A DNA stretch of 64,000 nt from Algorimicrobium algoritergicola. GTDB lineage: Bacteria > Bacteroidota > Bacteroidia > Flavobacteriales > Flavobacteriaceae. Where the stretch lies: positions 1 through 64,000 of the forward strand of contig NZ_VSKL01000007.1 of NCBI RefSeq assembly GCF_008086165.1, in the 5' to 3' direction. Of this stretch, positions 35,764-58,118 are shown piece after piece. Under the pieces are notes generated by a model. It saw only the letters and a list, made by a program, of their open reading frames with translations, was not told the origin of the DNA and ran no database searches. The stretch's first letter is position 1. Each line of letters begins with the position of its first letter. Both the position numbers and the translations under genes were made by a program.

Positions 35764-35779
35764 TATGATAATTATCATA
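35764..35779. promoter_or_regulatory. FNR box upstream of hemN
   Basis: TATGATAATTATCATA is a perfect 16-bp palindrome containing the TGATnnnnATCA core (35766-35777, centre 35771.5). It lies 29.5 nt before the first base of the -7 element at 35801, the position expected for an activator binding around -41.5. Confidence 0.85.
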
Positions 35780-35800
35780 TTTTAATCGTGTAAAAGATTT

Positions 35801-35808
35801 TAATTTTG
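35801..35808 (+). promoter_or_regulatory. -7 element of hemN (TAATTTTG)
   Basis: TAATTTTG matches TAnnTTTG and lies 18 bp before the hemN start. Its spacing to the FNR box is identical to that of the nos, cco and copper promoters. Confidence 0.75.
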
Positions 35809-35826
35809 CTTATTATTTAGTGAGTT

Positions 35827-37191
35827 ATGGCAAAAATATTAGTAAATAAATATAATGTAGCAGGTCCGAGATACACCAGCTACCCAACGGTTCCGTATTG
35901 GGATGAAGCTTCGTTTTCTATTGGGAAATGGGAAACCAGTTTGCGAAAATCTTTTAATGAAAGTAATGAAAGTGAAGGCATTAGTTTATATATTCATTTG
36001 CCATTTTGTGAGAGTTTATGCACCTTTTGTGGTTGCAATAAACGTATTACTACTAGACATGAAGTAGAATCGCCTTATATAGATTATGTATTAAAAGAAT
36101 GGCGGCTTTATGTTGAATTATTAGGAAATACGCCTCAAATTAAAGAATTGCATTTAGGAGGTGGAACACCTACTTTTTTTTCGCCTAAAAATTTAGAACG
36201 CCTTATAAATGGCATTTTTACCATAGCCGAAAAAGCAGATAATTACGAATTCAGTTTTGAAGGTCATCCAAATAATACAACCAAAACACATTTACAAACA
36301 TTATACAATTTAGGTTTTCGTCGGGTTAGTTACGGTGTTCAAGATTATAATGAAACCGTACAGAAAGCTATTCACAGAATTCAACCATTTGAAAATGTGA
36401 AACGCGTTACAGAAGAAGCTCGTGAAATAGGATATACATCTGTAAGTCATGATATTATTTTTGGGTTACCATTTCAAACCGAAGCTCATGTAGCTGAAAC
36501 AATTAGTAAAACCAAAGCTTTAATGCCAGACCGAATAGCTTTTTATAGTTATGCGCATGTGCCATGGATAAAAGGAAATGGACAACGTGGTTTTAAGGAT
36601 AACGATTTACCTTCAGCGGAAAGCAAGCGCAAGCAATACGAACTTGGAAAGGAACAATTAGATGCTTCTGGGTATGTAGAAATTGGTATGGATCATTTCG
36701 CATTAAAAACAGATAGTCTATATCAAGCCACAGAAACCAAAAAGCTTCATAGAAATTTTATGGGTTATACAGCTAGTAAAACCCAAATAATGGTTGGTTT
36801 AGGTGTTTCTGCCATAAGCGATAGTTGGTATGGTTTTGCACAAAATGAAAAGAAAATTGAAGATTATTACAAACGATTAGATACAGATGTAATTCCTGTA
36901 TTTAGAGGTCATATTTTAAATTCAGAAGATTTAATAATTAGACGTCATATTTTAAACCTCATGTGTCATTTTGAAACGAGTTGGAGTTTAAATTCAAATT
37001 ACTTTAAAGAATTACCGGATGTTTTAGTCCAAATAAAAGAATTGGAAACGGATGGGTTAATAATTATAAATACTAATTCAATTACAGTCACAGAAAAGGG
37101 TAAGCCTTATGTTAGAAACGTATGCATGGCTTTCGATTTATTACTTCAGAGAAAAAAACCTGAATCACAATTGTTTTCAATGACTATTTAA
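35827..37191 (+). CDS. hemN: Oxygen-independent coproporphyrinogen III oxidase
   Basis: This 454-residue radical SAM enzyme carries the HemN cluster motif CESLCTFCGC (C61, C65, C68, C70) after the conserved YIHLPF, together with the SAM-binding GGGTP and the HemN-specific DRIAFYSYAHVPW and QNEKKIEDYY segments. It converts coproporphyrinogen III to protoporphyrinogen IX without oxygen, allowing haem synthesis for the anaerobic cytochromes. The full length matches the HemN type rather than the shorter HemW-like homologues. An FNR box and a matching -7 element precede it, so it should be induced by oxygen limitation. A universal stress gene follows 82 bp downstream. Confidence 0.95.
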   Translation: MAKILVNKYNVAGPRYTSYPTVPYWDEASFSIGKWETSLRKSFNESNESEGISLYIHLPFCESLCTFCGCNKRITTRHEVESPYIDYVLKEWRLYVELLGNTPQIKELHLGGGTPTFFSPKNLERLINGIFTIAEKADNYEFSFEGHPNNTTKTHLQTLYNLGFRRVSYGVQDYNETVQKAIHRIQPFENVKRVTEEAREIGYTSVSHDIIFGLPFQTEAHVAETISKTKALMPDRIAFYSYAHVPWIKGNGQRGFKDNDLPSAESKRKQYELGKEQLDASGYVEIGMDHFALKTDSLYQATETKKLHRNFMGYTASKTQIMVGLGVSAISDSWYGFAQNEKKIEDYYKRLDTDVIPVFRGHILNSEDLIIRRHILNLMCHFETSWSLNSNYFKELPDVLVQIKELETDGLIIINTNSITVTEKGKPYVRNVCMAFDLLLQRKKPESQLFSMTI

Positions 37192-37273
37192 AACTTAAAA
37201 ATATCAATTAATACATAATCAACCTAAAAACGTTTTAACAATTTGTTTTCGTTTTTAATAAAATTACTACATC

Positions 37274-38104
37274 ATGAAAAAAATAATTGTACCGATAGAT
37301 TTCTCTGAATATTCGGAATACGCATTGGAAACAGCAGCCATTTTAGCTAAAAAAAATAATGCTGAAATTTTAGCATTACATATGCTTGAATTGTCTGAAG
37401 CTATTTTAACAAAAGGTTCTGATGGCCAAATGGAAACCGTATTTTTTATAAAACTAGCGGAAAAACGTTTTACAGAATTTTTGGATAAATCGTATTTAGA
37501 TGGTGTAAAAGTTACACCAATTGTAAAACACTTTAAGGTGTTTAGTGAAGTGAATGAGGTTGCCAAAGTAAACCAAGCAGATTTAATCATCATGGGATCT
37601 CAAGGCAGCAGTGGAATTAAAGAATATTTTGTAGGTTCTAATACCGAAAAGGTAGTTCGCTATTCAGAAATCCCCGTTTTGGTTATTAAGCATAATCCTA
37701 TTTTAACCGAATTCGAGACTATTGTTTTTGCATCAGATTTTTCAGATGATTCTGTTTCGGCATACCTAAAGGCCAAAGATATGTGCAGCATTTTAAAAGC
37801 GAACATGAATATGGTGTACGTTAACTTACCGGGTGAAAAATTTAAGAGTACGGCAGAAATGGAAGGCAAAATAGTTACCTTCTTTAAAAAAGCAGAAGGT
37901 GATTTGGAAAGTTTATCAAAAGTCACTTATGTCAGTGATTACACCGTAGAGCAAGGTATTTCAAACTTTGCTAACCTCATTGGTGCTGATCTGGTTGCAA
38001 TAGCTACACATGGTAGAAAAGGAATAGCTCATTTCTTTGAAGGCAGTATTTCAGAAGATGTGGCTAACCATTCCACATTGCCTGTAATGACATTTAAAAT
38101 TTAA
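37274..38104 (+). CDS. Two-domain universal stress protein
   Basis: This 276-residue cytoplasmic protein contains two UspA domains. The first (residues 1-142) has the ATP-binding loop G-2x-G-9x-G-S in MGSQGSSGIKEYFVGS; the second (about 145-276) has the shortened form THGRKGIAHFFEGS. Tandem UspA proteins are often induced under oxygen limitation or stasis. It is on the same strand as hemN with no intervening terminator, so it probably shares the FNR-controlled promoter; it has no FNR box of its own. A strong terminator follows. Confidence 0.9.
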   Translation: MKKIIVPIDFSEYSEYALETAAILAKKNNAEILALHMLELSEAILTKGSDGQMETVFFIKLAEKRFTEFLDKSYLDGVKVTPIVKHFKVFSEVNEVAKVNQADLIIMGSQGSSGIKEYFVGSNTEKVVRYSEIPVLVIKHNPILTEFETIVFASDFSDDSVSAYLKAKDMCSILKANMNMVYVNLPGEKFKSTAEMEGKIVTFFKKAEGDLESLSKVTYVSDYTVEQGISNFANLIGADLVAIATHGRKGIAHFFEGSISEDVANHSTLPVMTFKI

Positions 38105-38240: not shown

Positions 38241-38258
38241 ATATGATTTTTATCATAT
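38241..38258. promoter_or_regulatory. FNR box upstream of the nos cluster
   Basis: ATATGATTTTTATCATAT has 7-bp arms ATATGAT/ATCATAT around TTTT (core TGATTTTTATCA, centre 38249.5). It lies 29.5 nt before the -7 element at 38279. Confidence 0.87.
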
Positions 38259-38278: not shown

Positions 38279-38286
38279 TACTTTTG
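38279..38286 (+). promoter_or_regulatory. -7 element of the nos cluster (TACTTTTG)
   Basis: TACTTTTG matches TAnnTTTG, 22 bp before the cytochrome c start codon at 38309 and at fixed spacing from the FNR box. Confidence 0.75.
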
Positions 38287-38308: not shown

Positions 38309-38815
38309 ATGAGAACATCACTAAAATTAATGACATTATTATTCGCAATTGCCTTAATAGGTTGTGGCGGAAAAGAAGAGAAAAAGAAAGAATCTTTCTC
38401 TTATGACAAAAAAACACCAAAAACAGAAACTACAACAACACCAAAAGAAGAAGTAATATCAGCTTCTAAACGTGTTGATTTAACAAGTAAGGGTGTTGGG
38501 CCTATTACATCAGTAGTGTTGGACGCTAATATAGATCAAGCTATGGCTGATCAAGGTGCCGACATTTACCAGAAAATGTGTACCGCTTGTCATAGAGTTG
38601 ATAAGAAGTTTATTGGACCTGCACCAACTGGAATTATGGCGCGTAGAACACCAGAATGGATTATGAATATGATTCTAAATCCAGAACAAATGGTAAAAGA
38701 AGATCCATTAGCAAAAGAATTATTAATGGAGTTCAATGGTTCACCAATGGCTAACCAAAATCTTACAGAAGATGAGGCAAGAGCTGTATTAGAGTATTTC
38801 AGAACCTTAAAATAA
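38309..38815 (+). CDS. nos-cluster cytochrome c lipoprotein
   Basis: This 168-residue lipoprotein (lipidated C19 in LIGCGG) has a charged linker and one class I c-type haem domain: CTACH with C91, C94 and H95, and probable distal methionine M147 in GSPMANQNL. It is the first gene of the nos transcript, just after the FNR box. NosR, NosG and NosH are absent here, so this cytochrome is the best candidate electron donor to NosZ in the periplasm, receiving electrons from a bc-type or alternative complex III. That role is inferred from position. Confidence 0.9.
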   Translation: MRTSLKLMTLLFAIALIGCGGKEEKKKESFSYDKKTPKTETTTTPKEEVISASKRVDLTSKGVGPITSVVLDANIDQAMADQGADIYQKMCTACHRVDKKFIGPAPTGIMARRTPEWIMNMILNPEQMVKEDPLAKELLMEFNGSPMANQNLTEDEARAVLEYFRTLK

Positions 38816-38822
38816 ATACAAT

Positions 38823-39395
38823 ATGAAACCAATTAAAAAACTAATGCTTTCAGTCTTATGCTTATCACTTTTTTTAGGCTGTAAGAATGAAAATTCAGAA
38901 CCATCACAATCAGCCACGGAAGTACAGACTGCAGAAACAACAGAACGAACTGGTCAAGCTTTTATTGAAGATGATGGTAGTGCACCAACAGTATTAGATA
39001 TCGCTATCGGATCACCAGATCATACAACTTTGGTAGCCGCTGTTAAAGCCGCTGAATTAGAAAATGTGCTTGTAAATGCAGGACCACTTATGGTTTTTGC
39101 ACCTACCAATGAAGCATTTGCCGCTTTACCTGAAGGTACGATTGACGATTTATTAAAGCCTGAAAATAAGACGGCGTTGGCTAATATTTTAAAATATCAT
39201 GTAACACCAGGGAACTATTCAAAAGAATTTTTAATCAAATTCAAAAAACTAGGTCAGGCAAATAATCAAGATTTAAAAGTAGAGGTCATTAATGGTGAAC
39301 CTATGATTGGAGGAGCCAAGATTCTGGCAAGTATTCCTGCTGGTAACGGTATTGTTCATGTTATTGACAAAGTATTATTACCACCTTCGGAATAA
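38823..39395 (+). CDS. Fasciclin-domain lipoprotein in the nos cluster
   Basis: This 190-residue lipoprotein (C20 in LFLGC) has one fasciclin (FAS1) domain from about residue 58 to the end, with the H1 motif TLVAAVKAAELENVLVNAGPLMVFAPTNEAFAALP and the H2-like NGIVHVIDKVLLPP. FAS1 domains mediate protein or surface contacts. The gene lies between the cytochrome c (7-bp gap) and nosZ (28-bp gap), a position shared by other Bacteroidota nos clusters, so a support role for the reductase or its cytochrome is plausible but unproved. Confidence 0.88.
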   Translation: MKPIKKLMLSVLCLSLFLGCKNENSEPSQSATEVQTAETTERTGQAFIEDDGSAPTVLDIAIGSPDHTTLVAAVKAAELENVLVNAGPLMVFAPTNEAFAALPEGTIDDLLKPENKTALANILKYHVTPGNYSKEFLIKFKKLGQANNQDLKVEVINGEPMIGGAKILASIPAGNGIVHVIDKVLLPPSE

Positions 39396-39423
39396 CTATA
39401 AAACACTTAAAACTAAATAAATA

Positions 39424-41382
39424 ATGAAAAACACATTTAAATTATCAATAGGATTGATGGTTGTGGCACTTGCTTTTACAAGTTGTAATAATTCAACGCA
39501 AACATCAAACAAAGGTGCATTAGGGTCTAGTGCAGCTGAAAAAGTCTATGTCGCACCCGGTGAGCACGATTCCCATTATGCATTTATGTCAGGTGGTTAT
39601 AGCGGAAACTTAACCGTTTACGGACTGCCTTCAGGACGTATGTTCAAGGAAATTCCAGTTTTTTCACAGTTTCCAACCAATGGTTATGGATATTCAGAAG
39701 AAACAAAACCGATGTTAGAAACCTCTTATGGTTTTATTCCTTGGGATGATTCGCATCACCCAGATATTTCACAAACAAATGGTGAATTAGATGGTCGTTG
39801 GATTTTCATCAATGGTAATAACACACCACGTATTGCACGTATTAGTTTAAAAACGTTTGAAACTGAAGAAATCATTGAAGTTCCAAACAGTGCAGGTAAC
39901 CACAGTTCATCTTTTATTACAGAAAACACGGAGTATGTAGTAGCGGGAACTCGTTTTTCAGTTCCAGTACCACAACGCGATATGGCTATAAAGGACTACA
40001 AAGGAAACTTTAAAGGCGCTTTATCTTTTATTAGTGTTGACCCTGAAAGTGGCCACATGGATATAAAATTTCAAATTTTAATGCCAGGTTTTAACTACGA
40101 TTTATCACACCCTGGACGTGGAAAATCTCATGGTTGGTTCTTCTTCACAACCTATAATACAGAAGAAGCAAATAGTTTATTAGAGGTTAATGCATCTCAA
40201 AATGATAAGGATTTCATTGCCGCTATTAATTGGAAAAAGATTGAAGAATATGTAAATAATGGTGGTGGAACCATGATGCCTGCTAATTATGCACATAACA
40301 TACATAGCGATGAAACTCATATGGCAACATCAACTATGAAAAAAGAGGTACGAGTAGTAAACCCAGCAGAGGTTCCAGGTGCCGTATATTTTTTACCAAC
40401 ACCTAAGTCACCTCACGGTTGTGATGTAGATCCTTCTGGAGAATATATTGTGGGTAATGGCAAACTATCTGCTAACTTAACAGTGCATTCATTTACTAAA
40501 ATGCTTGATGCTATTGAGAAAGAAAAATTTGATGGAGAAGCTTATGGTATTCCAATTTTAAATTTTGAAGATGTTTTAGCTGGATCAGTTGAGCAACCGG
40601 GTTTAGGGCCATTACATACAGAATTTGATGGACAAGGGAATGCATATACAACGTTCTTTATCTCATCAGAAGTTGTAAAATGGAAATTAGGAACTTGGGA
40701 AGTGTTAGACAGAAAACCAACTTATTACTCTGTTGGTCACTTAACAATTCCAGGTGGAAACTCTAGAAAACCTTTTGGTAAGTATATGTTTGCAATGAAC
40801 AAAATTACTAAAGATCGATATTTACCAGTAGGTCCAGAAATGGAACATTCAGCACAGTTGTATGATATATCTGGAGATAAAATGGAATTATTATTAGATT
40901 TCCCTACGCATGGTGAGCCGCATTATGCAGCAGCTATTCCAGCTGAAATAATTAAAGATAAATCTGTTAAGTTCTTTAAGTTGGCTGACAATAAGCACCC
41001 TAGAAAAGCATTAAGTGATGCCGATACTAAAGTAGTTCGCGATGGTAAAAACGTGCATATTTATATGACAACTATCCGTAGTCACTTTTCACCAGATAAT
41101 ATTGAAGGTGTTAAAGTCGGGGATAAAGTATTTTTCCATATTACTAACTTGGAGCAAGATTTTGATGTGCCACATGGTTTTGCTATGATTGGTGCTAATA
41201 ATGCCGAATTATTAATTATGCCAGGGCAAACAAGAACATTGACTTGGGATGCGAAACAAGTAGGGGTTTGGCCTTTCTATTGTACAGATTTCTGTTCAGC
41301 ATTACACCAAGAGATGCAAGGCTATATTCGTGTGTCTCCAGCCGATTCTGATATAGAGTTGTCTTGGTCATTAGGCGAATAA
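39424..41382 (+). CDS. nosZ: Nitrous oxide reductase, clade II (Sec-type)
   Basis: This 652-residue enzyme reduces N2O to N2. Its N-terminus is a lipoprotein-like Sec signal (TSC, C21) without a twin-arginine motif, which marks the clade II (atypical) type. The seven-bladed propeller holding the CuZ site has its first histidines in GEHDSHYAF (H48, H51). The C-terminal cupredoxin domain holds the CuA site: H in VPHGFAMIG, then C620, C624, H628 and M631 in YCTDFCSALHQEM. It follows the cytochrome c and fasciclin genes in one transcript and is followed by a terminator-like hairpin before the maturation genes. Expression is expected under FNR control. Confidence 0.97.
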   Translation: MKNTFKLSIGLMVVALAFTSCNNSTQTSNKGALGSSAAEKVYVAPGEHDSHYAFMSGGYSGNLTVYGLPSGRMFKEIPVFSQFPTNGYGYSEETKPMLETSYGFIPWDDSHHPDISQTNGELDGRWIFINGNNTPRIARISLKTFETEEIIEVPNSAGNHSSSFITENTEYVVAGTRFSVPVPQRDMAIKDYKGNFKGALSFISVDPESGHMDIKFQILMPGFNYDLSHPGRGKSHGWFFFTTYNTEEANSLLEVNASQNDKDFIAAINWKKIEEYVNNGGGTMMPANYAHNIHSDETHMATSTMKKEVRVVNPAEVPGAVYFLPTPKSPHGCDVDPSGEYIVGNGKLSANLTVHSFTKMLDAIEKEKFDGEAYGIPILNFEDVLAGSVEQPGLGPLHTEFDGQGNAYTTFFISSEVVKWKLGTWEVLDRKPTYYSVGHLTIPGGNSRKPFGKYMFAMNKITKDRYLPVGPEMEHSAQLYDISGDKMELLLDFPTHGEPHYAAAIPAEIIKDKSVKFFKLADNKHPRKALSDADTKVVRDGKNVHIYMTTIRSHFSPDNIEGVKVGDKVFFHITNLEQDFDVPHGFAMIGANNAELLIMPGQTRTLTWDAKQVGVWPFYCTDFCSALHQEMQGYIRVSPADSDIELSWSLGE

Positions 41383-41426
41383 ATTAAAGAATAGGAGAAT
41401 TTTGTTTTAGTGTTTATTTTCCTAAT

Positions 41427-41465
41427 AAGGCGAGAGTAGATGTATCTCTCTCGCCTTTCTTTTTA
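41427..41465 (+). terminator. Terminator/attenuator after nosZ
   Basis: A perfect 10-bp stem AAGGCGAGAG/CTCTCGCCTT (41427-41436 with 41448-41457) is followed by TCTTTTTAAAT. It sits inside the nos cluster and would lower expression of the maturation genes relative to nosZ. Confidence 0.85.
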
Positions 41466-41508
41466 AATCACTATTAACTAAATGGTTAATTTTTAAATAT
41501 TAAAATTT

Positions 41509-42129
41509 ATGAAAAAGGCTGGCATTTTAATGATTATCGGATCGTTATTATTATTAGGACTTTTTAAATTTCCTCTTTGGAACATTATGCTTGGAGCACC
41601 ACAATATCCAGAACCTTTAGGGATGGATATTTATATTGATGGTATTAAAGGTATAACGGAATTTGACCTTCAAAATATTGATGGTTTAAACCATTATATA
41701 GGGATGAAAACAATTCCGAAGCCTGAAGAAATGTGGGAGTTTTCCGTATTCCCAAAAGTTATATTAGGTATGGTAATTCTTGGCGTTGTCATTGGATTTC
41801 TTGGTTTTTTTGAAAAAGTTAGCTATAAATATTTTTTAGGTTGGTTTCTACTAATGTCTATCTTAGGCGTATTAGGAATGTATGATTTTAATAATTGGTT
41901 AATTGATTATGGTAGCAACCTAGATCCACATGCCATTATTAAGGTTACAAATCCTGATGGTACACCAATGTCCTACAAACCACCATTAATTGGATATCAA
42001 AAATTATTAAATTTTGATGTAGATTCTTGGCCTCATATTGGTGGATATTTAATGTTTATTGGTATGTCTTTTACACTCGTTGCTTTCTGGTTAGGAAGAA
42101 AAATGACTTTAAAGCAAACGACACAATAA
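41509..42129 (+). CDS. nos-cluster membrane protein (nosB position)
   Basis: This 206-residue membrane protein has about four helices (residues 4-24, 83-101, 106-125 and 176-194) with an extracytoplasmic loop (about 28-80) and another (128-172). I see no copper-binding or haem motif. It lies directly after nosZ and before nosL, which in clade II clusters is the place of the nosB-type membrane protein; that equivalence rests on position and membrane topology only. It may assist NosZ assembly or electron transfer. Confidence 0.7.
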   Translation: MKKAGILMIIGSLLLLGLFKFPLWNIMLGAPQYPEPLGMDIYIDGIKGITEFDLQNIDGLNHYIGMKTIPKPEEMWEFSVFPKVILGMVILGVVIGFLGFFEKVSYKYFLGWFLLMSILGVLGMYDFNNWLIDYGSNLDPHAIIKVTNPDGTPMSYKPPLIGYQKLLNFDVDSWPHIGGYLMFIGMSFTLVAFWLGRKMTLKQTTQ

Positions 42130-42165
42130 ACAATTTGCAAAAAAAACATTAAACACTAAACACTC

Positions 42166-42591
42166 ATGAAACATTTAATTTTAATACTTCTTCTTGGCGT
42201 TACTTTTACGTCGTGTACGGTAAAGCCAGAACCTATAAATTACGGTCAAGATGCTTGTCATTTCTGTAAAATGACTATTGTAGATAAAGTGCATGCAGCC
42301 GAGGTGGTCACGCATAAAGGTAAAGTGTACAAGTTTGACGCTACCGAGTGCATGGTAAATTTTATGGATGATTTTGATACAGCAGAAATTAAACTGTATT
42401 TAACCAACCACTTTAATCAACCTGAAACACTTATTGATGCTACGAATGCCACGTTTTTAATTAGTAAAAACGTTCCAAGTCCTATGGGTGCCTTCTTAAC
42501 GGCATTTAAAACCAAGCAAGAGGCGGAAACTGTTCAGGCAGAACAAGGTGGTGAGATCTATACATGGGATGCTTTATTGCAACACTTGTAA
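42166..42591 (+). CDS. nosL: NosL copper chaperone
   Basis: This 141-residue lipoprotein (C17 in FTSC) is NosL, the Cu(I) chaperone that loads the CuZ site of NosZ. The copper motif is CHFCKM (C31, C34, M36), followed by the family segment AEVVTHKGKVYKFDATECMVNFM and the C-terminal SPMGAFLTAF. It lies between the nosB-position gene and nosD on the same strand, 36-41 bp from each. Copper is presumably supplied by the import set encoded at 45862-49356. Confidence 0.95.
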   Translation: MKHLILILLLGVTFTSCTVKPEPINYGQDACHFCKMTIVDKVHAAEVVTHKGKVYKFDATECMVNFMDDFDTAEIKLYLTNHFNQPETLIDATNATFLISKNVPSPMGAFLTAFKTKQEAETVQAEQGGEIYTWDALLQHL

Positions 42592-42632
42592 TATTAATTA
42601 CGAATATATTTAAACACTAAAAACATTTTGTG

Positions 42633-43880
42633 ATGCCATTAAAAAAGCACCATTTACTAGTTGCTACCCTCATGTTTTTGCTTGGTAACACACTCTTTTC
42701 TCAAACGCTTACGGTGTGTAAAACTTGTGATATCAAAACACTACAAGGTGGTATTGATGCAGCAAAAGCAAATGACACTATTTTTGTTGAAAAAGGAATC
42801 TATAAAGAAATTAACGTACTCGTTGATAAACCACTAACCATTATTGGTAAAGATTATCCCATTATTGATGGGGAAATGAAAGGTGAAATTATTACCATTA
42901 CTTCAGATAACGTAACGGTTGACGGTTTGTTTATCAAGAACGTAGGAACAAGTTATACTTCAGATTATGCAGCTATTCGCTTGAAACGTGTTGAAAATTT
43001 TGTTGTAAAAAATCTTGTTTTAGAAAAGTTGTTTTTTGGTATTTATGTTGAAAAATCTAAAAATGGAAAAATATTTCATAACAAAATAATAGGCGATGCG
43101 GTAGAGGAGTATAATTCTGGAAATGGCATTCAACTTTGGTATAGTAAAAATATTGAAATTGAGCATAATTTTATACAGCGAGTCCGAGATGGTATTTATT
43201 TAGAATTTTCAGATGATTGCATTATAAAAAATAACGTGAGTTCTCATAACGTACGATATGGTTTACATTTTATGTTTTCCAATAGAGATACTTATGAGGA
43301 TAATCTCTTTGAAAAAAATGGCGCTGGCGTTGCCGTAATGTTTTCTAAAGACATAAAAATGTATAATAATATTTTTAGAGAAAATTGGGGAACTGCGTCT
43401 TATGGATTACTGCTTAAAGAAATAAATGATGCCGAAATTATGTACAACACGTTTGAACAAAATACTATTGGCATTAATACAGAAGGTTCCAACCGAATCC
43501 GATATGAAAACAACAACTTTATAAGTAATGGCTGGGCTATAAAAGTCCTTGGTGCCTGCTATTCAAACACGTTTAAGGGAAATAATTTTTTATATAATTC
43601 CTTTGACATGGCCTATAACAGTAAAGTGCATGATAACGAATTTGATGGTAACTATTGGAGTAATTATACAGGTTATGATTTGGATAAAGATGGTGTAGGT
43701 GATGTACCATACAGACCTGTGAAACTCTTTTCATATATTGTAAATCGAACACCAGAGACTATCATTTTACTACGTAGTTTATTTATTGATATTATTGATT
43801 TCTCTGAAAAAGTATCACCTGTATTTACACCAGATAACTTACTGGATAATAACCCTAAAATTAAAAAAATAACATGGTAA
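42633..43880 (+). CDS. nosD: NosD periplasmic copper-maturation protein
   Basis: This 415-residue protein has a signal peptide (about residues 1-24, ending LFSQ) and a right-handed parallel beta-helix domain with many NosD-type turns (IEIEHNFIQRVRDGIYLEFSDDC, IKNNVSSHNVRYGLHFMFS, YEDNLFEKNGAGVAVMFS), ending in the conserved GNYWSNYTGYDLDKDGVGDVPYRP. NosD works with NosF and NosY to supply copper (through NosL) to NosZ. A GTG at 42630 precedes the preferred ATG at 42633. Its stop overlaps the nosF start by 7 bp. Confidence 0.95.
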   Translation: MPLKKHHLLVATLMFLLGNTLFSQTLTVCKTCDIKTLQGGIDAAKANDTIFVEKGIYKEINVLVDKPLTIIGKDYPIIDGEMKGEIITITSDNVTVDGLFIKNVGTSYTSDYAAIRLKRVENFVVKNLVLEKLFFGIYVEKSKNGKIFHNKIIGDAVEEYNSGNGIQLWYSKNIEIEHNFIQRVRDGIYLEFSDDCIIKNNVSSHNVRYGLHFMFSNRDTYEDNLFEKNGAGVAVMFSKDIKMYNNIFRENWGTASYGLLLKEINDAEIMYNTFEQNTIGINTEGSNRIRYENNNFISNGWAIKVLGACYSNTFKGNNFLYNSFDMAYNSKVHDNEFDGNYWSNYTGYDLDKDGVGDVPYRPVKLFSYIVNRTPETIILLRSLFIDIIDFSEKVSPVFTPDNLLDNNPKIKKITW

Positions 43881-44581
43881 GTGTTGAAAATTTACATAAA
43901 AAATTTGGCAAGAATAACGTATTAATTGGTCTGGATTTAGAAATTAATGAAGGTGGTATTTTTGCCGTATTAGGACCTAATGGTTCTGGGAAAACCACAC
44001 TTATAAAATCTATTTTAGGCATGGTAATTCCGGATAAAGGAACAATTTCTATTCGCGGAAAATCTATTAAAAAAGATTCCAATTACAGAAAACAAATAGA
44101 CTATTTGCCTCAAATTGCTAATTTCCCTAGTAACCTGAAGGTAAAGGAACTTATTAAAATGATTAAAGACTTACGAGGTAATTCAACTAACGAAGCTGCT
44201 TTAATCGAAATGTTTAAATTAGAACCTTTTATTGATAAAAAACTTGGTCAGCTTTCTGGCGGAACCAAGCAAAAAGTAAACATCTTATTGACCTTTATGT
44301 TTGATAGTCCTTTGGTTATTTTAGATGAGCCAACAACTGGTCTAGACCCTATTGCGCTTATTCGATTAAAAGAGCTAATTAAAGCAGAGAAAGCCAAAGG
44401 TAAAACGGTGTTAATTACATCGCATATTATGAGTTTTGTGGAAGAAATTTCTGATGAAATTGTTTTCCTTTTAGAAGGAAAAATCTATTTTAAAGGCACT
44501 ATTCCAGCGCTTAAAGCACAAACCAATCAACCAGATTTAGAACACGCAATTGCATCCATTTTAACTACAAATCATGTTTAA
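43874..44581 (+). CDS. nosF: NosF ABC transporter ATPase
   Basis: This 235-residue ATP-binding protein has Walker A GPNGSGKT at residues 34-41, the Q-loop LPQ at 78-80, the ABC signature LSGGT at 127-131 and Walker B VILDEP at 148-153, followed by the D-loop GLD and the switch histidine in ITSHI. With NosY it forms the NosDFY transporter that powers copper-site assembly in NosZ. Start and stop overlap nosD (7 bp) and nosY (8 bp), showing tight coupling. Confidence 0.95.
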   Translation: MVSVENLHKKFGKNNVLIGLDLEINEGGIFAVLGPNGSGKTTLIKSILGMVIPDKGTISIRGKSIKKDSNYRKQIDYLPQIANFPSNLKVKELIKMIKDLRGNSTNEAALIEMFKLEPFIDKKLGQLSGGTKQKVNILLTFMFDSPLVILDEPTTGLDPIALIRLKELIKAEKAKGKTVLITSHIMSFVEEISDEIVFLLEGKIYFKGTIPALKAQTNQPDLEHAIASILTTNHV

Positions 44582-45356: not shown

Positions 45357-45357
45357 T

Positions 45358-45814: not shown

Positions 45815-45826
45815 TGATTTTTATCA
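45815..45826. promoter_or_regulatory. FNR box upstream of the copper-uptake genes
   Basis: TGATTTTTATCA (centre 45820.5) has perfect 4-bp core arms; flanking bases differ from the other boxes (G before, G after). It lies 29.5 nt before the -7 element at 45850. Confidence 0.8.
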
Positions 45827-47358: not shown

Positions 47359-49356
47359 ATGAAAAAGTATATCATATACGGCATAGGTTTCTTGTTTAGT
47401 GCCTTTATGTATGCACAAGAAACAGAAACTACCGTAGAAAAAGATACCACGCAACTCCAAGAAGTTATTTTGATTGGCCAGCGTAAATTAAGTAATTACC
47501 GACAAGAAAAAACCCTTTCAAGTGTTGATGACTATTTAGAGAAATCGAATAAAATTACCATGATTAAACGTGGTAATTATGCTTGGGAACCTACCATGAA
47601 CAACATGACTAGCGAACGTTTGAACGTTACTATTGATGGGATGCAAATTTTTGGAGCATGTACGGATAAAATGGATCCGATAACATCATATGTGGATGTT
47701 TCTAATTTAGAAAAGGTAAACATAGGATCTGGGCAAGAAGGAACTGAAAATGGTCATGCTATTGGTGGTGGCATCGACCTACAATTACCGCAATCTAAAT
47801 ATTACGATTTTGGTTTTAAAGGCAGTGCTGATTTAGGTTACGAAACCAACGGAAATTACCGAACAGCAGGATTAGATTTAGAGTATTCAGGTAATAAATT
47901 TTATATTAATGCAGATGGTATTTACCGAAAATCTGATAATTATGATGCTGGAAACAATCAAGAGGTTTTGTATTCGCAATTTGAAAAATACAATGTCTCG
48001 CTTCAAAGTGGTTATAAATTGAATGAAAACCATTCAGTAGATGCTAATCTTATTTACGATAAAGCAACAGATGTTGGATATCCAGCATTACCTATGGATG
48101 TGTCTTTAGCTGAAGCTTTAATTACCTCTTTAACACACACGTATAAAAACGATTCTACATTTGTGAAATCCTGGGAATCTAAACTGTATTATAATACAAT
48201 TACCCATATTATGGACGATTCAAAACGGCCAGATGTACCCATCAGAATGGATATGCCAGGCTGGAGTGATACCTATGGGTTTTATAGTAAGTTAGGTTTA
48301 AAAGAAAATAAGCACGATCTATTATTTAATTTAAACGGGTTTTATAATCGTTCTGTTGCCGAAATGACCATGTATCCAAATGACTCCAATCAACCAGCTA
48401 TGTTTATGTTTACGTGGCCGGATATTAGAACGTTATATTCAGGGATTTTTGCCAAAGATGCTATTACATTAAGTAATAAAGAAACATTGACGGCTTCCGC
48501 TAGATTTGGTTTTCATAATAATACCATTGCAGAGCAAGTGGGATTGGAGAGTTTACAAATTTTCTATCCAGATTTAACGGATAGTAAAAATCGTTTCTTA
48601 ATGAGTGTATCTGCCGATTATAAACTAAAAACTAAAAAGTATGATGCTAGTTTTGGTCTTGGCTATGGTGAACGCGCACCTTCCGTTAGTGAAGGTTATG
48701 GTTTTTTCCTGTTTAACAGTTTTGACAACTATGATTATATAGGAAATCCGACATTAAATAATGAAAAGGCTGTGGAAGTTAATGCCAAAGCAAACTATAA
48801 TAAAAAACGCTTTCAAGTAGGTGTGGAGGCATCTTATTTCTACATTATGGATTACATTATTGGCGAAATAGATCCAAGCTTAAGTGCTATGACTATTGGT
48901 GCAGATGGTGTACGTGTTTATAATGCGTTATCTCATGCGTCTATCTTTGACGTTTTTGTAAATGCTAGTTATGATTTCACCAATAAACTATCGGCAAATG
49001 CAACCGTAGGCTACAATTATGGATCAGGAAGTAATGGTGAGAATTTACCACTTATCAAACCTTTCTCATATGTAGCGGAAATAGCTTATAATCTTACAAA
49101 GTTTAATGTAGCCTTGCAGTTGGAAGGAAATGGTAATCAAAGTCGTTATAGTAGTTTTTATGGCGAAGATAATACATCAGCTTATGCCGTTTTAAACCTT
49201 AATTTAGGAAATATCCTATATGTGAAGGATAATAAAATGATTTTCAAGTATGGCGTGGAAAACATATTAGACGCCAACTATTCAACTTATGCAGACTGGA
49301 ATAATATTCCTCGTCAAGGACGAAATTTCTATGTAAATGTGTCTTATGTGTTTTAA
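47359..49356 (+). CDS. NosA/OprC-like TonB-dependent copper receptor
   Basis: Read from ATG 47359 this is a 665-residue outer-membrane receptor with a signal peptide (ending MYAQ). Its plug has the NosA/OprC hallmark INVxIDG...GxC...MDPxxSY: here LNVTIDGMQIFGACTDKMDPITSY, giving C101 and M105 (CxxxM). In the barrel, H283 and M285 in ITHIMDD give the second half of the OprC copper site (HxM). In Pseudomonas, NosA and OprC import copper and NosA is needed for NosZ maturation. The first in-frame ATG at 47311 lies in the hairpin and is not used here. It ends in a bidirectional terminator facing the cco operon. Confidence 0.85.
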   Translation: MKKYIIYGIGFLFSAFMYAQETETTVEKDTTQLQEVILIGQRKLSNYRQEKTLSSVDDYLEKSNKITMIKRGNYAWEPTMNNMTSERLNVTIDGMQIFGACTDKMDPITSYVDVSNLEKVNIGSGQEGTENGHAIGGGIDLQLPQSKYYDFGFKGSADLGYETNGNYRTAGLDLEYSGNKFYINADGIYRKSDNYDAGNNQEVLYSQFEKYNVSLQSGYKLNENHSVDANLIYDKATDVGYPALPMDVSLAEALITSLTHTYKNDSTFVKSWESKLYYNTITHIMDDSKRPDVPIRMDMPGWSDTYGFYSKLGLKENKHDLLFNLNGFYNRSVAEMTMYPNDSNQPAMFMFTWPDIRTLYSGIFAKDAITLSNKETLTASARFGFHNNTIAEQVGLESLQIFYPDLTDSKNRFLMSVSADYKLKTKKYDASFGLGYGERAPSVSEGYGFFLFNSFDNYDYIGNPTLNNEKAVEVNAKANYNKKRFQVGVEASYFYIMDYIIGEIDPSLSAMTIGADGVRVYNALSHASIFDVFVNASYDFTNKLSANATVGYNYGSGSNGENLPLIKPFSYVAEIAYNLTKFNVALQLEGNGNQSRYSSFYGEDNTSAYAVLNLNLGNILYVKDNKMIFKYGVENILDANYSTYADWNNIPRQGRNFYVNVSYVF

Positions 49357-53212: not shown

Positions 53213-55387
53213 TTATTCTTCTAAATCAGTTACATTAATATCTGTTCCTAATCGTTGCATGTATGCAATTACGGCTACAATTTCACGATTACGCATTTCA
53301 ACAAAATCTTCGCCACCTGCAGCTTTTTCAGCCTCATACGTGGCTGCGAAATCAGGATCAGCATATAAATTCTGTTCAATTTTTGTTCCTTGCTCCAACA
53401 TGTTTTGTTGTGCGTTGGCAATGTCCTCTTCTGTATATGGTACACCTAAAGTAACCATGGCTTCCATTTTAGTTTCTGTAATGGACTTGTCTAATTTATT
53501 GGTAATAAACCATTTGTATGATGGCATAATAGAACCGGAAGAGGTGCTTTGCGGATCATAGAAGTGATTAAAATGCCAATTGTCTGAATATTTTCCACCT
53601 ATGCGATGTAAATCTGGACCTGTACGCTTACTTCCCCATAGGAATGGGTGGTCATAAACAAACTCTCCAGCTTTGGAGTAGTCACCATAGCGTTCTACTT
53701 CACTTCTAAATGGTCTTACCATTTGAGAGTGACAACCTACACAACCTTCACGGATGTATATATCACGACCTTCTAATTCCAAAGGAGTATATGGTTTCAC
53801 GCTACTAATTGTAGGTATATTGGATTTAACCATAATGGTAGGTACTATTTGGACAATACCACCAATTAATATAGCAATGGTTGCATAAATTGTTAATCTA
53901 ACTGGTTTTCTTTCTAACCAAGAGTGCCATCCTTCGCCACCCACACGGCTTTTAGAAACATTTTGCAAAGCCGGAGCTTCAGCTAATTCATCCGTAACTT
54001 TACTACCATTTTTAGCAGTAATAATAACGTTATAGACTAATACTAACATACCTGTTAGGTAAAGTGTACCTCCAATGGCACGCATCCAATACATAGGCAT
54101 TATTTCAGTAACGGTTTCTAAAAAGTTACCATAAACTAAAGTCCCATCTGGGTTAAATTGCTTCCACATACTTGCTTGTGTAAATCCAGCAACATATAAT
54201 GGTAAGGCATACATAATGATACCTAAAGTACCAATCCAGAAATGGAAATTAGCTAAACCAATGGAGTGTAATTTTGTTTTAAATAAGCGAGGTATTAACC
54301 AATAAATCATACCGAAAGCCAAGAATCCGTTCCAAGCTAATGCGCCTACGTGAACGTGCGCAATAATCCAGTCGGTAAAATGGCCAATGGCGTTTACATT
54401 TTTTAAAGACAGCATGGGGCCTTCAAAAGTTGCCATACCGTAACCCGTAATAGCCACTACCATAAATTTTAAAACAGGATCTGTACGTACTTTATCCCAA
54501 GCACCACGGAGCGTTAATAGTCCGTTAATCATACCACCCCAAGATGGCATTAATAACATAACAGAAAACGCCACACCTAAATTTTGTGCCCATTCTGGAA
54601 GTGCTGTGTATAATAAGTGGTGGGGTCCAGCCCAGATATATATAAAAATTAATGACCAGAAGTGAATAATGGACAAACGATAAGAATATACAGGTCTGTT
54701 AGCCGCTTTAGGAACAAAATAATACATTAAACCTAAAAATGGTGTTGTCAAGAAAAATGCTACAGCATTATGTCCATACCACCATTGCACCAATGCATCC
54801 TGAACACCTGCGTATACAGAATAACTTTTAAAAGCACTAACAGGCACTTCTAAACTGTTAAAAATATGAAGTACGGCAACTGTTACAAACGTCGCTATAT
54901 AAAACCAAATAGCAACATATAAATGTCGTTGTCTACGCTTAATCATAGTTCCAATTAAATTGGCACCAAACACAACCCAAACTACAGCAATGGCAATATC
55001 AAAGGGCCATTCAAGCTCGGCATATTCTTTAGATGTTGAAAAGCCTAATGGTAATGTTATGGCCGCACCAACAATAATAAGTTGCCAACCCCAAAAGTTA
55101 ATTTTACTTAAAACATCGCTATACATTCTCGCTTTTAAAAGTCGTTGTGTTGAGTAGTAAACACCGGCAAAAATGGCATTACCAACAAAAGCGAAAATTA
55201 CTGCATTGGTGTGTAACGGTCTTAATCTACCAAAACTTAACCACGAAATTCCATCGGTTAAGTTGGGAAATAAAAACATAAATGCTAAAAGTAAGCCTAC
55301 AAGCATACCTACAACTCCCCAAAACATGGTGGCATAGAGGAAATTTTTAACGACCTTGTTGTCGTAATAGAATTGTTGTACTTCCAT
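53213..55387 (-). CDS. ccoNO: Fused CcoN-CcoO subunit of cbb3 oxidase
   Basis: This 724-residue protein fuses the catalytic CcoN and monohaem CcoO subunits. CcoN (residues 1-about 465) has twelve helices, with likely haem ligands H59 and H343/H345 (HVHVG) and CuB ligands H206 (WWYGHN), H256 and H257 (GPHHLLY). CcoO (about 490-724) has one membrane helix and the haem c motif CVGCH (C549, C552, H553), with the Met ligand in IMPSYKWF. The fusion is usual in Bacteroidota. The enzyme reduces O2 to water at low oxygen and pumps protons. It is the second gene of the FNR-preceded operon. Confidence 0.96.
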   Translation of the reverse strand: MEVQQFYYDNKVVKNFLYATMFWGVVGMLVGLLLAFMFLFPNLTDGISWLSFGRLRPLHTNAVIFAFVGNAIFAGVYYSTQRLLKARMYSDVLSKINFWGWQLIIVGAAITLPLGFSTSKEYAELEWPFDIAIAVVWVVFGANLIGTMIKRRQRHLYVAIWFYIATFVTVAVLHIFNSLEVPVSAFKSYSVYAGVQDALVQWWYGHNAVAFFLTTPFLGLMYYFVPKAANRPVYSYRLSIIHFWSLIFIYIWAGPHHLLYTALPEWAQNLGVAFSVMLLMPSWGGMINGLLTLRGAWDKVRTDPVLKFMVVAITGYGMATFEGPMLSLKNVNAIGHFTDWIIAHVHVGALAWNGFLAFGMIYWLIPRLFKTKLHSIGLANFHFWIGTLGIIMYALPLYVAGFTQASMWKQFNPDGTLVYGNFLETVTEIMPMYWMRAIGGTLYLTGMLVLVYNVIITAKNGSKVTDELAEAPALQNVSKSRVGGEGWHSWLERKPVRLTIYATIAILIGGIVQIVPTIMVKSNIPTISSVKPYTPLELEGRDIYIREGCVGCHSQMVRPFRSEVERYGDYSKAGEFVYDHPFLWGSKRTGPDLHRIGGKYSDNWHFNHFYDPQSTSSGSIMPSYKWFITNKLDKSITETKMEAMVTLGVPYTEEDIANAQQNMLEQGTKIEQNLYADPDFAATYEAEKAAGGEDFVEMRNREIVAVIAYMQRLGTDINVTDLEE

Positions 55388-55392: not shown

Positions 55393-55581
55393 TTAATTAG
55401 TCTTTTTGGTTTTAATAGTTTGTTTTTGGTTTTCTTTTACGAGTTCATCTTCAAATAGCATTCTGACAGATGGTGTATAATCATCATCAAATTGACCGCT
55501 TCTTACTGCCAAAACAAAAGCAATAAAAAAGCCAATGGCCACTACGATGCTGATACTCAATAATATGTATATAACACTCAT
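55393..55581 (-). CDS. ccoS: CcoS assembly protein
   Basis: This 62-residue protein has one membrane helix (about residues 3-24) and the CcoS pattern FAVRSGQFDDDYTPSVRMLFED. CcoS is needed for cofactor insertion into cbb3 oxidase. It is the first gene behind the FNR box at 55630-55647 and ends 6 bp before ccoNO. Confidence 0.93.
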   Translation of the reverse strand: MSVIYILLSISIVVAIGFFIAFVLAVRSGQFDDDYTPSVRMLFEDELVKENQKQTIKTKKTN

Positions 55582-55601: not shown

Positions 55602-55609
55602 CAAAAATA
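55602..55609 (-). promoter_or_regulatory. -7 element of the cco operon (TATTTTTG on minus)
   Basis: The minus strand reads TATTTTTG from 55609 down to 55602, 21 bp before the ccoS start and exactly 29.5 nt from the FNR box centre. Confidence 0.75.
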
Positions 55610-55629: not shown

Positions 55630-55647
55630 ATATGATAAAAATCATAT
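55630..55647. promoter_or_regulatory. FNR box upstream of ccoSNOQPGH
   Basis: ATATGATAAAAATCATAT has 7-bp arms ATATGAT/ATCATAT (core 55633-55644, centre 55638.5). It is the reverse complement of the box before the nos cluster. It lies between the stop of ccoI and the start of ccoS. Confidence 0.88.
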
Positions 55648-55661: not shown

Positions 55662-58034
55662 TCATTCTAATTTCCTACCAATAACATTGGTTGCAACCGT
55701 AGTAAAAACCACAATACTTATAGAACTTAATGGCATTAAAATAGCGGCAATAACAGGCTCTAATTGTCCAGTAACCGCAAAGTACAACCCTATTATATTA
55801 TATACAAATGAGAGGGCAAAACTCCACTTAATAATTTTTATAGCTTGTTTGGATGCTTTTATATATTGGTATAATTGATTGAATTTGGATGCGTCTAAAA
55901 TGGCGTCACAAGCAGGCGAAAAGACATTCACATTCTCTGAAATAGCTATGCCAACTTCGCTTTGTGCCAATGCACCAGCATCATTTAACCCGTCGCCAAT
56001 CATGAGCACTTTAGCGCCTTCAGACTGATGATATTTAATATAATCCAATTTATCGTCTGGTTTTTGATTAAATATTAATTTAGTTTTTGCTGGTAATAAT
56101 TTTTTTAAGTTTTCCAATTCACCGGCATTATCCCCCGAAAGGATAACTAAATCATACTCATGTTTTAAGCTATTAAACAATTTGGATAATCCTTTTCTAT
56201 AACTATTATAAAAGGTGTATTTTCCTTTGTATTGGTTGTTACTGTTAATATGAACTGTGGTATTCAGTATGGATTTATCTTGTTTGAAGCCAACAAAACT
56301 GGCGGAACCAATTTTCATCGTATCATTTTGATGAGTACTTTCAATACCTTGACCTAAATGTTCTTCAAAATGGTTTAATGTTATGATATCATGCTCATCT
56401 AAAATATCATAAAGTGTACGGCTCAAAGGGTGGTTTGAACCTCGCAAGGTATTCTTTAAAAGGATTTCCTCTGACGTGGATAATGCATCACCATCATAGG
56501 TGGCGGAACTTTGCTTATTGGAAGTAATAGTTCCTGTTTTATCGAAAATAATGGTATTTATAGCTGCTAATTGTTCAATAACAGATGCGTTTTTGAGGTA
56601 GAATTTCAACTTGCCAAAAATCCGTAATAAATTTCCTAACGTAAAAGGCGCGGAAAGGGCAATAGCACATGGACAAGCAATAATTAAAACAGCTGTAAAG
56701 ACATTCATGGCTTTGGATGAATCTACAAGTAACCAATAGGTGGTTGCTATAAATGCAATACTTAAAACTGCAATTGTAAAACGCTTACTAATAGTATTAG
56801 TTAAGTTTGTAAAGCTGTCTTGTTTATTTTTATTAAAAACATCATTACTCCATAACTGTGTTAAATAACTTTGCTCCACAGATTTTAAAGCTTCCATTTC
56901 AATAACACCAGTGGTTTGTTTCCCTCCAGCGAAAAGTTTATCGCCAGAATTTTTAGTTATGGCATCAGACTCTCCTGTAACAAAACTATAATCAATTTTT
57001 GCTTTGCCATTTATTAAAATGCCATCAACCGGAATTAATTCTTGATTTCTAATAAGAAGGCGATCTCCTTTCTCAATATCATAAACTTGAATTGGTGTTT
57101 CTATACCATCCAAAATTTTTGTAATTGCAATAGGAAAATAGGATTTGTAATCTCTTTCAAAAGAAAGAAATGAATAAGTTTTTTGTTGAAAAAACCGGCC
57201 TAGCAACAGGAAAAATACTAACCCCGTTAAACTGTCAAAAAATCCAGAACCGATATCTAATATAATTTCAACAGTACTTCTTATGAATAATACAGCCAGA
57301 CCTAGTGCTATGGGAACATCAATATTTAAAAGTCCAGAGCGCAGTCCTTTATAAGCTGATGTAAAATAATCGCGCCCAGCATAAAAAACAACAGGTAATG
57401 AAAACGCAAACATGAGCCATCTAAAAACGTGTTTATATTGCTCTAGCCAAAATTCGCCCACTTCAAAATACTCTGGAAATGATAAAAACATAACGTTTCC
57501 AAAAGAAAACCCCGCAATACCGAGCTTGTAAATTAGCGAACGATTAATATTTTCCTTACCCGTTTTGAAATCATTTAAGGAAATATAGGGTTCGTACCCA
57601 ATAGCACTTAAAAGCAAAACCACCTCTTTTAAAGAAAAATTTTCGGTATTATATGTTATACGAACATTCTTTTTGCCAAAATTAACTTGAGAAGCTGTAA
57701 TGTTATTATTGAGTTTGTTTAGGTTTTCTAATATCCAAATACACGAACTACAATGTATATGCGGAATATACAAGGTGACAATTTGAATACGTCCATCATT
57801 AAATTCCGTGAGTTTTTCAATAATGTTTTCTTTTGAGAGAAAATCATATTTACCCTGAATCTCTTTAGGTGCAGAGCCTGGTGATGCTTGTAAGTCGTAA
57901 TAACAAGTTAAATCGTTTTCTGAAAAGATTTCATAAACCGTTTTACAACCATTACAACAAAATAATTTTTCGTCGTAAGTAATTTGTTCTGAATTGCATA
58001 TATCACCACAGTGGAAACATTTGTGTTGTTCCAT
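55662..58034 (-). CDS. ccoI: Copper-translocating P1-type ATPase CcoI/FixI
   Basis: This 790-residue P1B ATPase, read from the ATG at 58034, has an N-terminal Cys-rich domain (CFHCGDIC, FCCNGC; residues 6-30), an HMA domain with HCSSC (C95, C98), eight membrane helices, the transport motif CPC at 454-456, the phosphorylation site D498 in DKTGT and the ATP-binding GDGLNDAGAL. CcoI exports Cu(I) for cbb3 assembly. An upstream in-frame ATG at 58079 would put the promoter inside the gene, so 58034 is preferred. It is divergent from the fnr gene with a shared FNR box. Confidence 0.94.
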   Translation of the reverse strand: MEQHKCFHCGDICNSEQITYDEKLFCCNGCKTVYEIFSENDLTCYYDLQASPGSAPKEIQGKYDFLSKENIIEKLTEFNDGRIQIVTLYIPHIHCSSCIWILENLNKLNNNITASQVNFGKKNVRITYNTENFSLKEVVLLLSAIGYEPYISLNDFKTGKENINRSLIYKLGIAGFSFGNVMFLSFPEYFEVGEFWLEQYKHVFRWLMFAFSLPVVFYAGRDYFTSAYKGLRSGLLNIDVPIALGLAVLFIRSTVEIILDIGSGFFDSLTGLVFFLLLGRFFQQKTYSFLSFERDYKSYFPIAITKILDGIETPIQVYDIEKGDRLLIRNQELIPVDGILINGKAKIDYSFVTGESDAITKNSGDKLFAGGKQTTGVIEMEALKSVEQSYLTQLWSNDVFNKNKQDSFTNLTNTISKRFTIAVLSIAFIATTYWLLVDSSKAMNVFTAVLIIACPCAIALSAPFTLGNLLRIFGKLKFYLKNASVIEQLAAINTIIFDKTGTITSNKQSSATYDGDALSTSEEILLKNTLRGSNHPLSRTLYDILDEHDIITLNHFEEHLGQGIESTHQNDTMKIGSASFVGFKQDKSILNTTVHINSNNQYKGKYTFYNSYRKGLSKLFNSLKHEYDLVILSGDNAGELENLKKLLPAKTKLIFNQKPDDKLDYIKYHQSEGAKVLMIGDGLNDAGALAQSEVGIAISENVNVFSPACDAILDASKFNQLYQYIKASKQAIKIIKWSFALSFVYNIIGLYFAVTGQLEPVIAAILMPLSSISIVVFTTVATNVIGRKLE

Positions 58035-58059
58035 AAAATTTGCCCATTTATACCTTTTG

Positions 58060-58067
58060 CAAAGGTA
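58060..58067 (-). promoter_or_regulatory. -7 element of ccoI (TACCTTTG on minus)
   Basis: The minus strand reads TACCTTTG from 58067 down to 58060, 26 bp before the ccoI start. Distance to the box centre is 28.5 nt, one less than in the other four promoters. Confidence 0.6.
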
Positions 58068-58089
58068 AAATATAAGCATTGATTTAATA

Positions 58090-58101
58090 TGATTTTTGTC
58101 A
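58090..58101. promoter_or_regulatory. FNR box between ccoI and fnr
   Basis: TGATTTTTGTCA (centre 58095.5) has one mismatch in the second arm (GTCA). It serves the divergent region of ccoI (minus) and the regulator gene (plus). Confidence 0.7.
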
Positions 58102-58110
58102 TGTATTGTG

Positions 58111-58118
58111 TATTTTTG
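58111..58118 (+). promoter_or_regulatory. -7 element of the fnr gene (TATTTTTG)
   Basis: TATTTTTG lies 23 bp before the start at 58142. The FNR box centre is only 15.5 nt upstream of it, so a bound regulator would cover the promoter and probably repress. Confidence 0.55.

Follow-up and report, generated by a model that had tools for sequence, protein, structure and literature searches.

This study concerns a stretch of 64,000 nucleotides (nt) from the marine flavobacterium Algorimicrobium algoritergicola (contig NZ_VSKL01000007.1, positions 1 to 64,000; hereafter the window). Four of its operons, those for haem synthesis (hemN-usp), nitrous oxide reduction (nos), copper uptake and the cbb3 cytochrome oxidase (cco), are each preceded by a box with the core TGATN4ATCA, placed at one and the same distance from a TAnnTTTG promoter element. 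The spacing is beyond chance, both in the genome of this organism and in the class Bacteroidia. Judging from sequence, the boxes probably mark a class II low-oxygen regulon that would be run in this strain by the FNR-like protein encoded at 58142.

A constant distance between box and -7 element

Distances are expressed here as the gap, the number of nucleotides between the ATCA of the core and the TA of TAnnTTTG, a gap of 23 corresponding to 29.5 nt from the centre of the core to the first base of the element. Exact cores lie at 35766-35777, 38244-38255, 45815-45826 and 55633-55644 (the last, a palindrome, read on the minus strand), with the first bases of their elements at 35801, 38279, 45850 and 55609 (minus strand). 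The gap is 23 in all four cases, and the coordinates bear out the 29.5 nt that a preliminary description of the window had reported for each. The same holds for the 28.5 nt it gave for a fifth core, TGATTTTTGTCA (58090-58101, centre 58095.5), which carries one mismatch to TGATN4ATCA and stands 22 nt from the -7 element of ccoI, TACCTTTG (58067-58060, minus strand). The window has exact cores at 6513, 27301, 30191 and 39747 as well, which went unmentioned in that description and none of which has gap 23. A core separated from TAnnTTTG by 20-30 nt occurs four times, as compared to 0.05 occurrences expected in the shuffled window.

TAnnTTTG by itself is no more common in the window than expected (111 occurrences in both cases), as would suit the explanation that AT-rich intergenic sequence, or the choice of elements after the fact, produced the fixed spacing by accident. 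The other gaps between 8 and 38, which involve the same motifs in the same genomes, served as the control; the pattern read backwards was not taken as the main null, because it alters word composition. The whole genome (3.54 Mb in 29 contigs) contains 16 pairs of core and TAnnTTTG at gaps 8-38, seven of them at gap 23 as against 0.3 per other gap, the remaining nine being scattered with no more than two at any gap. Three of the seven boxes are outside the window. Across the class, a sample of 198 genomes yields 1198 pairs, 265 of which fall at gap 23, as compared to a mean of 31.1 per other gap, or 238 against 29.4 when the six genomes of the organism's own family are left out; the numbers of genomes with a match in this tally (116 and 183 of 198) are the same as the search totals. 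The control thus rules out accidental spacing (265 against 31.1, and 7 against 0.3), to which I would assign next to no probability.

For the family Flavobacteriaceae, where 60 genomes were scanned, the pair count covers the 150 pairs listed, which come from 19 of these genomes. Among the matches listed for the 18 genomes other than that of A. algoritergicola, gap 23 accounts for 28 of 134 pairs, gap 24 for 11, gap 22 for six and gaps elsewhere for a mean of 3.2. The base after ATCA is T in all seven gap-23 boxes of A. algoritergicola and, among the matches listed, in 22 of the 28 family boxes at gap 23, versus 45 of 106 at other gaps. In one genome from another family (G123; contigs C11, C59 and C76), several gap-23 boxes are almost identical and their -7 parts resemble one another, which looks like the copying of a single promoter.

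The three boxes outside the window precede nirK, whose product is a copper nitrite reductase carrying a cytochrome c domain at its C terminus (TIGR02376; L010, 1607-3043), the gene of a ribosome hibernation factor (HPF; TIGR00741) and that of an HYC_CC_PP protein of unknown function (NF047658). All but the last of the seven gap-23 boxes in the genome precede genes for respiration, haem, copper, nitrogen oxides or dormancy. Since nirK was located by the geometry alone, it lends independent support to a low-oxygen and nitrogen-oxide set. The earlier proposal of a single oxygen-limited regulon stands as to one box, one geometry and coherent operons; the set is larger than proposed (nirK, HPF and HYC_CC_PP), with oxygen as its presumed signal. 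The nirK gene adjoins a parA-like gene (so named by inspection).

The nos, copper and cco cores are identical, and the box-promoter units might be recent copies of one promoter, equally spaced by descent. Their 23-nt spacers, however, differ from operon to operon, and for each of hemN, nos, copper and cco the spacer varies in sequence among relatives while its length stays 23; I regard such copying as very improbable.

The upstream regions of homologous operons, taken from the best matches of each search rather than drawn at random, were scanned for cores with at most one mismatch accompanied by TAnnTTTG at gaps 8-38. Gap 23 was found in 11 of 12 pairs upstream of hemN (29 loci, own excluded, 200 nt), in 16 of 16 for nos (29 loci, one of the same genus, 1500 nt before nosZ), in five of five for the copper genes (29 loci, mostly weak homologs, 500 nt) and in 24 of 25 for cco (32 loci, 450 nt). 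In the four sets pooled, this makes 56 of 58 pairs, with one at gap 22 and one at gap 24. Membership in the target set drifts; the distance hardly does.

Position of the boxes and the target operons

Class II sites of the kind bound by Escherichia coli FNR and CRP are centred at -41.5. In Flavobacterium psychrophilum, a member of the same family, the available text of a start-site map places TAnnTTTG at -12 to -5 (PMC9723704). With the first base of the element at -12, the additional 29.5 nt would put the centre of the box at exactly -41.5 if the rule of F. psychrophilum holds here, and it is with this rule applied that the class II position named in the earlier proposal fits. The starts predicted in this way, given below for each operon, imply leaders of 0-21 nt.

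Bacteroidota promoters have a -33 consensus, TTTG. None of the five target promoters contains a TTTG separated from its -7 element by 16-25 nt (in that of cco one occurs at 15 nt), and the lack of a good -33 element is what a class II promoter would present. A protein at -41.5 might nevertheless act as a repressor, or might sense nitric oxide, haem or copper instead of oxygen, for copper and nitrogen-oxide genes are prominent in the target set, and the cysteines of the regulator described below could bind copper or react with nitric oxide. I consider this rather unlikely: the position of the box and the missing TTTG point to activation, and, as far as the available text of the F. psychrophilum study goes, oxygen limitation strongly induces the cbb3 oxidase in that organism and the enzymes of haem synthesis as well (PMC9723704).

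The boxes below, to which no strand is assigned, are all predicted activator boxes. That of hemN-usp, TGATAATTATCA (35766-35777, predicted centre -41.5), and its -7 element (35801-35808, plus strand; predicted start 35813) precede hemN, which encodes oxygen-independent coproporphyrinogen III oxidase (35827-37191, plus strand; TIGR00538 over cut-off), and, 3' of it, the universal stress protein gene usp (37274-38104, plus strand; PF00582). The box of the nos cluster is TGATTTTTATCA (38244-38255), with a -7 element at 38279-38286 (plus strand) and a predicted start at 38291. The cluster itself (38309-45807, plus strand) encodes a cytochrome c, a fasciclin-domain protein, NosZ, NosL, NosD and an ABC ATPase and includes unassigned open reading frames. 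NosZ belongs to clade II, the Sec-dependent type (TIGR04246, 943 bits against a cut-off of 625). The fasciclin-domain gene (38823-39395) stands between those of the cytochrome c and NosZ.

The copper-uptake set (45862-49356, plus strand) has its box, again TGATTTTTATCA, at 45815-45826 and its -7 element at 45850-45857 (plus strand). Its predicted start, 45862, is the A of the ATG, so that the transcript would be leaderless. The set consists of a 132-amino-acid protein without a family match in profile searches, a YtkA-like protein and a TonB-dependent receptor, whose nearest family is TonB-copper with a score under the cut-off. On the minus strand, the cco box (55633-55644, TGATTTTTATCA as read on that strand) and -7 element (55602-55609; predicted start 55597) precede a gene for 62 amino acids (55393-55581, by translation), the first of the operon and, judging from its sequence and position, presumably ccoS, and next the ccoNO fusion of the cbb3 cytochrome oxidase (53213-55387; PF00115, PF02433). 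The cco pair at gap 23 is present in 24 of the 32 loci.

The region between ccoI and the regulator gene

The regulator gene (58142-58819, plus strand) is divergent from ccoI, which encodes a copper P-type ATPase (minus strand; PF00122, PF12156). A box with at most one mismatch lies between the two in 40 of 41 loci, the window included, although many of the loci come from close relatives (Winogradskyella), so that counts in this region are not independent. The box in the window (58090-58101, no strand assigned) is predicted to serve both as the activator box of ccoI, at gap 22, and as the operator of the regulator gene, centred at about -27.5. The -7 element of ccoI (58060-58067, minus strand) predicts a start at 58055. 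The listed ccoI reading frame starts at 58079, upstream of the proposed -7 element; by inspection, the in-frame ATG at 58034 (MEQHKCFHCG) is probably the likelier start, giving a gene at 55662-58034, and with it the conflict is gone.

On the ccoI side, 34 of the 38 loci with an element have nAnnTTTG at gap 23, and four, the window among them, have an element at gap 22. All 34 elements at gap 23 lack the first T (AA, CA or GA), and all four at gap 22 are full TAnnTTTG. The 28.5-nt spacing given for ccoI in the preliminary description is therefore an exception, coupled with a stronger -7 element. On the other side, the -7 element of the regulator gene in the window is TATTTTTG (58111-58118, plus strand; predicted start 58123), and of the 40 loci that have a box, 33 show TAnnTTT(G/A) at gap 9 (28 loci) or 10 (5 loci). 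At such gaps the box would be centred near -27.5 or -28.5, overlapping the core promoter of the regulator gene, whose product may repress its own synthesis from the ccoI box.

In the leader of ccoI (58034-58067 in the window; L026-L065) there is a stretch on the plus strand, TTTGCTCATTTATACCT, that is conserved in many of the 41 aligned loci. The leader in the window contains an out-of-frame ATG, and either a leader element or a short upstream frame is possible.

The regulator and the attribution of the regulon

The 58142 protein is a Crp-family regulator with a cNMP-binding beta-roll and a Crp-type helix-turn-helix (HTH) domain (PF00027 and PF13545, both over cut-off), 94% identical to its counterpart in Bizionia echini. 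Cysteines C4, C7, C53 and C106 occur in all 41 sequences compared and C29 in 36; from the invariance of the first four one might guess that they form a set of metal or redox ligands. Of the nine Crp-family proteins in the genome it alone has an N-terminal CxxC. Its AlphaFold model has a mean pLDDT of 78.7 (about 62-65 over the first 20 residues), and the structure of holo-FNR (5e44) is among the fold matches to the model, at rank 39 with a TMq of 0.72. I read it as a protein that is FNR-like in action but not FNR by strict membership.

A number of observations weigh against attributing the regulon to this protein, or against calling the protein FNR. Some concern its identity. The cluster cysteines of E. 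coli FNR are C20, C23, C29 and C122, and FNR reads TTGAT-N4-ATCAA through the recognition residues VE--SR. In an alignment with FNR of Aliivibrio fischeri, C4, C7 and C106 match FNR cysteines, the third FNR cysteine is replaced by N13, and C53 falls opposite an alanine, so that three of the four ligands align. The recognition helix, TESAIR, has the form TE--IR, and the box is ATGAT-N4-ATCAT. The best NCBIfam match is Fnr (NF008365), at 73.5 bits against a cut-off of 228. Where the preliminary description named FNR as the regulator, then, FNR-like can be kept and canonical FNR cannot.

Other points concern conservation within the genome and among relatives. A paralog, L017, has the helix VETVIR, also of the form E--IR, and the comparison of kept boxes covers the promoter of the 58142 gene alone among the nine Crp-family genes. 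No gap-23 pair was found upstream of 18 of 29 hemN genes (200 nt), 13 of 29 nosZ genes (1500 nt), 24 of 29 copper genes (500 nt, mostly weak homologs) and eight of 32 cco operons (450 nt).

The remaining points come from the distribution of regulators. Among the 60 family genomes an ortholog of the 58142 protein (best E-value no greater than 1e-60) is present in 37 and absent from 23, the latter including two (G043, G020) with 40%-identical partial matches. The family contains 150 gap-23 boxes in 48 of the 60 genomes, in agreement with the search totals. The enrichment of gap 23 over other gaps is 14.5-fold in genomes with the ortholog, and it is 12.1-fold in the 23 without it (40 boxes). Of these 40 boxes, 32 fall in the 11 genomes that carry a second type of regulator, a fusion of a receiver domain to a Crp-type protein. 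Genomes with the ortholog only (24 genomes, 54 boxes) show a 10.2-fold enrichment, or 9.4-fold without A. algoritergicola (47 boxes against 5.0 per other gap in 23 genomes for which no match of receiver-Crp size is listed), below the 19.2-fold of those with the fusion only (11 genomes, 32 boxes). Genomes assigned both regulators, by frame length among the matches listed and with Pfam confirmation for G013 and G038, show 24.3-fold (13 genomes, 56 boxes), and those with neither still show 4.9-fold (12 genomes, eight boxes). In the class, genomes with a strong homolog (E-value no greater than 1e-40, 80 genomes) show 10.4-fold, those with a weak one (93 genomes) 7.1-fold, and those without any (25 genomes, 20 of them listed and five inferred as missing from the table) 3.8-fold. 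Presence or absence of the regulator, considered as a basis for attribution in its own right, was rejected as not clean, since enrichment persists without the ortholog (12.1- and 3.8-fold).

All 11 genes in the fusion-only genomes encode receiver, cNMP-binding and HTH_Crp domains by Pfam, with an E--IR helix in every case; the frame in G036 is 351 amino acids long. In the three loci inspected (G040 and G007, with the fusion only, and G013, with both regulators), the fusion follows a PAS histidine kinase, and a usp gene comes next, with a gap-23 box directly before it. FixL proteins make up the seven best solved-structure matches to the PAS domain of G013; the four displayed alignments run without gaps, with a histidine at the site of the FixL haem ligand. 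The fusion has the appearance of FixJ and FixK joined in a single protein. Among the relatives with such fusions (L186-L190, L192-L203), the box geometry often occurs before hemN as well.

An exact gap-23 box precedes hemN in five of the nine fusion-only genomes that have the gene (G036 being one with hemN and no such box) versus six of 32 genomes with the FNR-like ortholog, two of which (G018, G037) also carry a match of fusion size. This comparison covers 42 hemN genes in the 60 genomes and, with exact cores only, the 102 of the 150 boxes that could be typed; the 48 untyped boxes were checked by eye, and the 150 nt before each typed hemN contain none of them. The hemN gene may follow either regulator. 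The fusion itself is absent from the genome of A. algoritergicola, where the open frames of the nine cNMP-domain proteins do not exceed 237 codons. Since the geometry is kept in 11 genomes that have the fusion and lack the ortholog, it does not prove the 58142 protein to be the sole regulator.

The boxes might accordingly represent a shared -41.5 code for which the main activator in this strain is another Crp-family protein, for example L017. Nine proteins with a cNMP-binding domain are available, L017 shares E--IR, and the code is associated with another type of regulator in relatives. But it is the 58142 gene that lies beside the box copy kept in nearly all loci and that adjoins cco and ccoI, and only its product has the N-terminal cysteine pair. 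Control by a paralog is therefore unlikely, in my view, and control by the 58142 protein remains the preferred reading. A core before the gene of another paralog, L019, TGATTTAAATCA with TAnnTTTG at gap 27, is on contig C24 (L008, L019), just upstream of that Crp-family gene, and is possibly the gene's own operator.

Discussion

As a working mechanism, a dimer of the 58142 protein would bind ATGAT-N4-ATCAT, a palindrome with its centre 41.5 bp upstream of the transcription start. The bound regulator would replace the need for a -33 element and contact the sigma and alpha subunits of RNA polymerase, while the Bacteroidota sigma-A would read TAnnTTTG at -12 to -5. Falling oxygen would be sensed, probably through a metal or redox centre carried by C4, C7, C53 and C106, whereupon the regulator would switch on hemN for haem synthesis, cco and ccoI for the cbb3 oxidase and the loading of its copper, the copper-uptake set, nirK and nos. 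At its own gene the box, near -27.5, falls on the core promoter, and there the regulator would probably limit its own synthesis. Binding by this protein, its sensing of oxygen, activation and autorepression are all put forward on sequence grounds.

The arrangement recalls several known systems. With FNR of E. coli and A. fischeri it shares the Crp fold, three of the four aligned cluster cysteines, the TGATN4ATCA core and a box predicted at -41.5, and it differs in the asparagine at the third ligand and the invariant C53, in TE--IR instead of VE--SR, and in the outer bases of the box, A and T rather than T and A. Compared with the class II promoters of FNR, those described here have a Bacteroidota -7 element and an almost invariant spacing. 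The rhizobial FixL-FixJ-FixK cascade is similar in controlling a cbb3 oxidase and its copper ATPase, in its Crp-family output and in its oxygen signal; unlike some relatives, which fuse a receiver directly to a Crp-type output, A. algoritergicola has no receiver-Crp fusion.

Nitrosophilus labii belongs to another phylum, the Campylobacterota. In the available text on that organism, control of its clade II nosZ by a Crp/Fnr regulator is suggested (PMC11539149). HcpR, DNR and NnrR, so far as their published comparison is available, are likewise Crp/Fnr proteins with nitrogen-oxide targets (PMC1274295). The only Bacteroidetes case in the available part of that work is HcpR2, with the consensus GTAACnnnnGTTAC and hcp targets, and no nos or cco regulon appears there (PMC1274295). 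The sigma-A promoters of F. psychrophilum, again from the available text, resemble the present ones in TAnnTTTG at -12 to -5 and in the low-oxygen induction of cbb3 and haem genes; the main text of that study contains no mention of fnr or crp, and no activator box appears in the part available (PMC9723704). No description of this box geometry or of an FNR-type regulon in Flavobacteriaceae was found in the portions of the open-access literature available, which is weak evidence of absence.

A broader reading has about an even chance of being right: ATGAT-N4-ATCAT 23 nt before TAnnTTTG may be a near-invariant code common to the Bacteroidia and shared by different oxygen or redox sensors, one an FNR variant with its ligand relocated to C53, another a FixL-like PAS kinase with a receiver-Crp protein. 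It would seem that sensors were lost or exchanged in the course of descent and that the promoters were kept. This is drawn from the box kept by five of nine hemN promoters in fusion-only genomes and from an enrichment that tracks both regulators (4.9-, 10.2-, 19.2- and 24.3-fold with neither, the ortholog, the fusion and both).

Flavobacteriaceae are abundant in the sea, and a match to the NosZ of the window, in a few cases weak or partial, is present in 92 of 199 sampled genomes of the family. A switch for the reduction of N2O in these bacteria would bear on models of greenhouse gases. The rigid spacing would provide a rule by which the low-oxygen regulon and its likely transcription starts could be sought in Bacteroidia genomes without experiments. 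It would also offer a testable case of promoters that outlive their sensor, and the regulator itself may represent a new arrangement of cysteines in a sensor of the FNR type.

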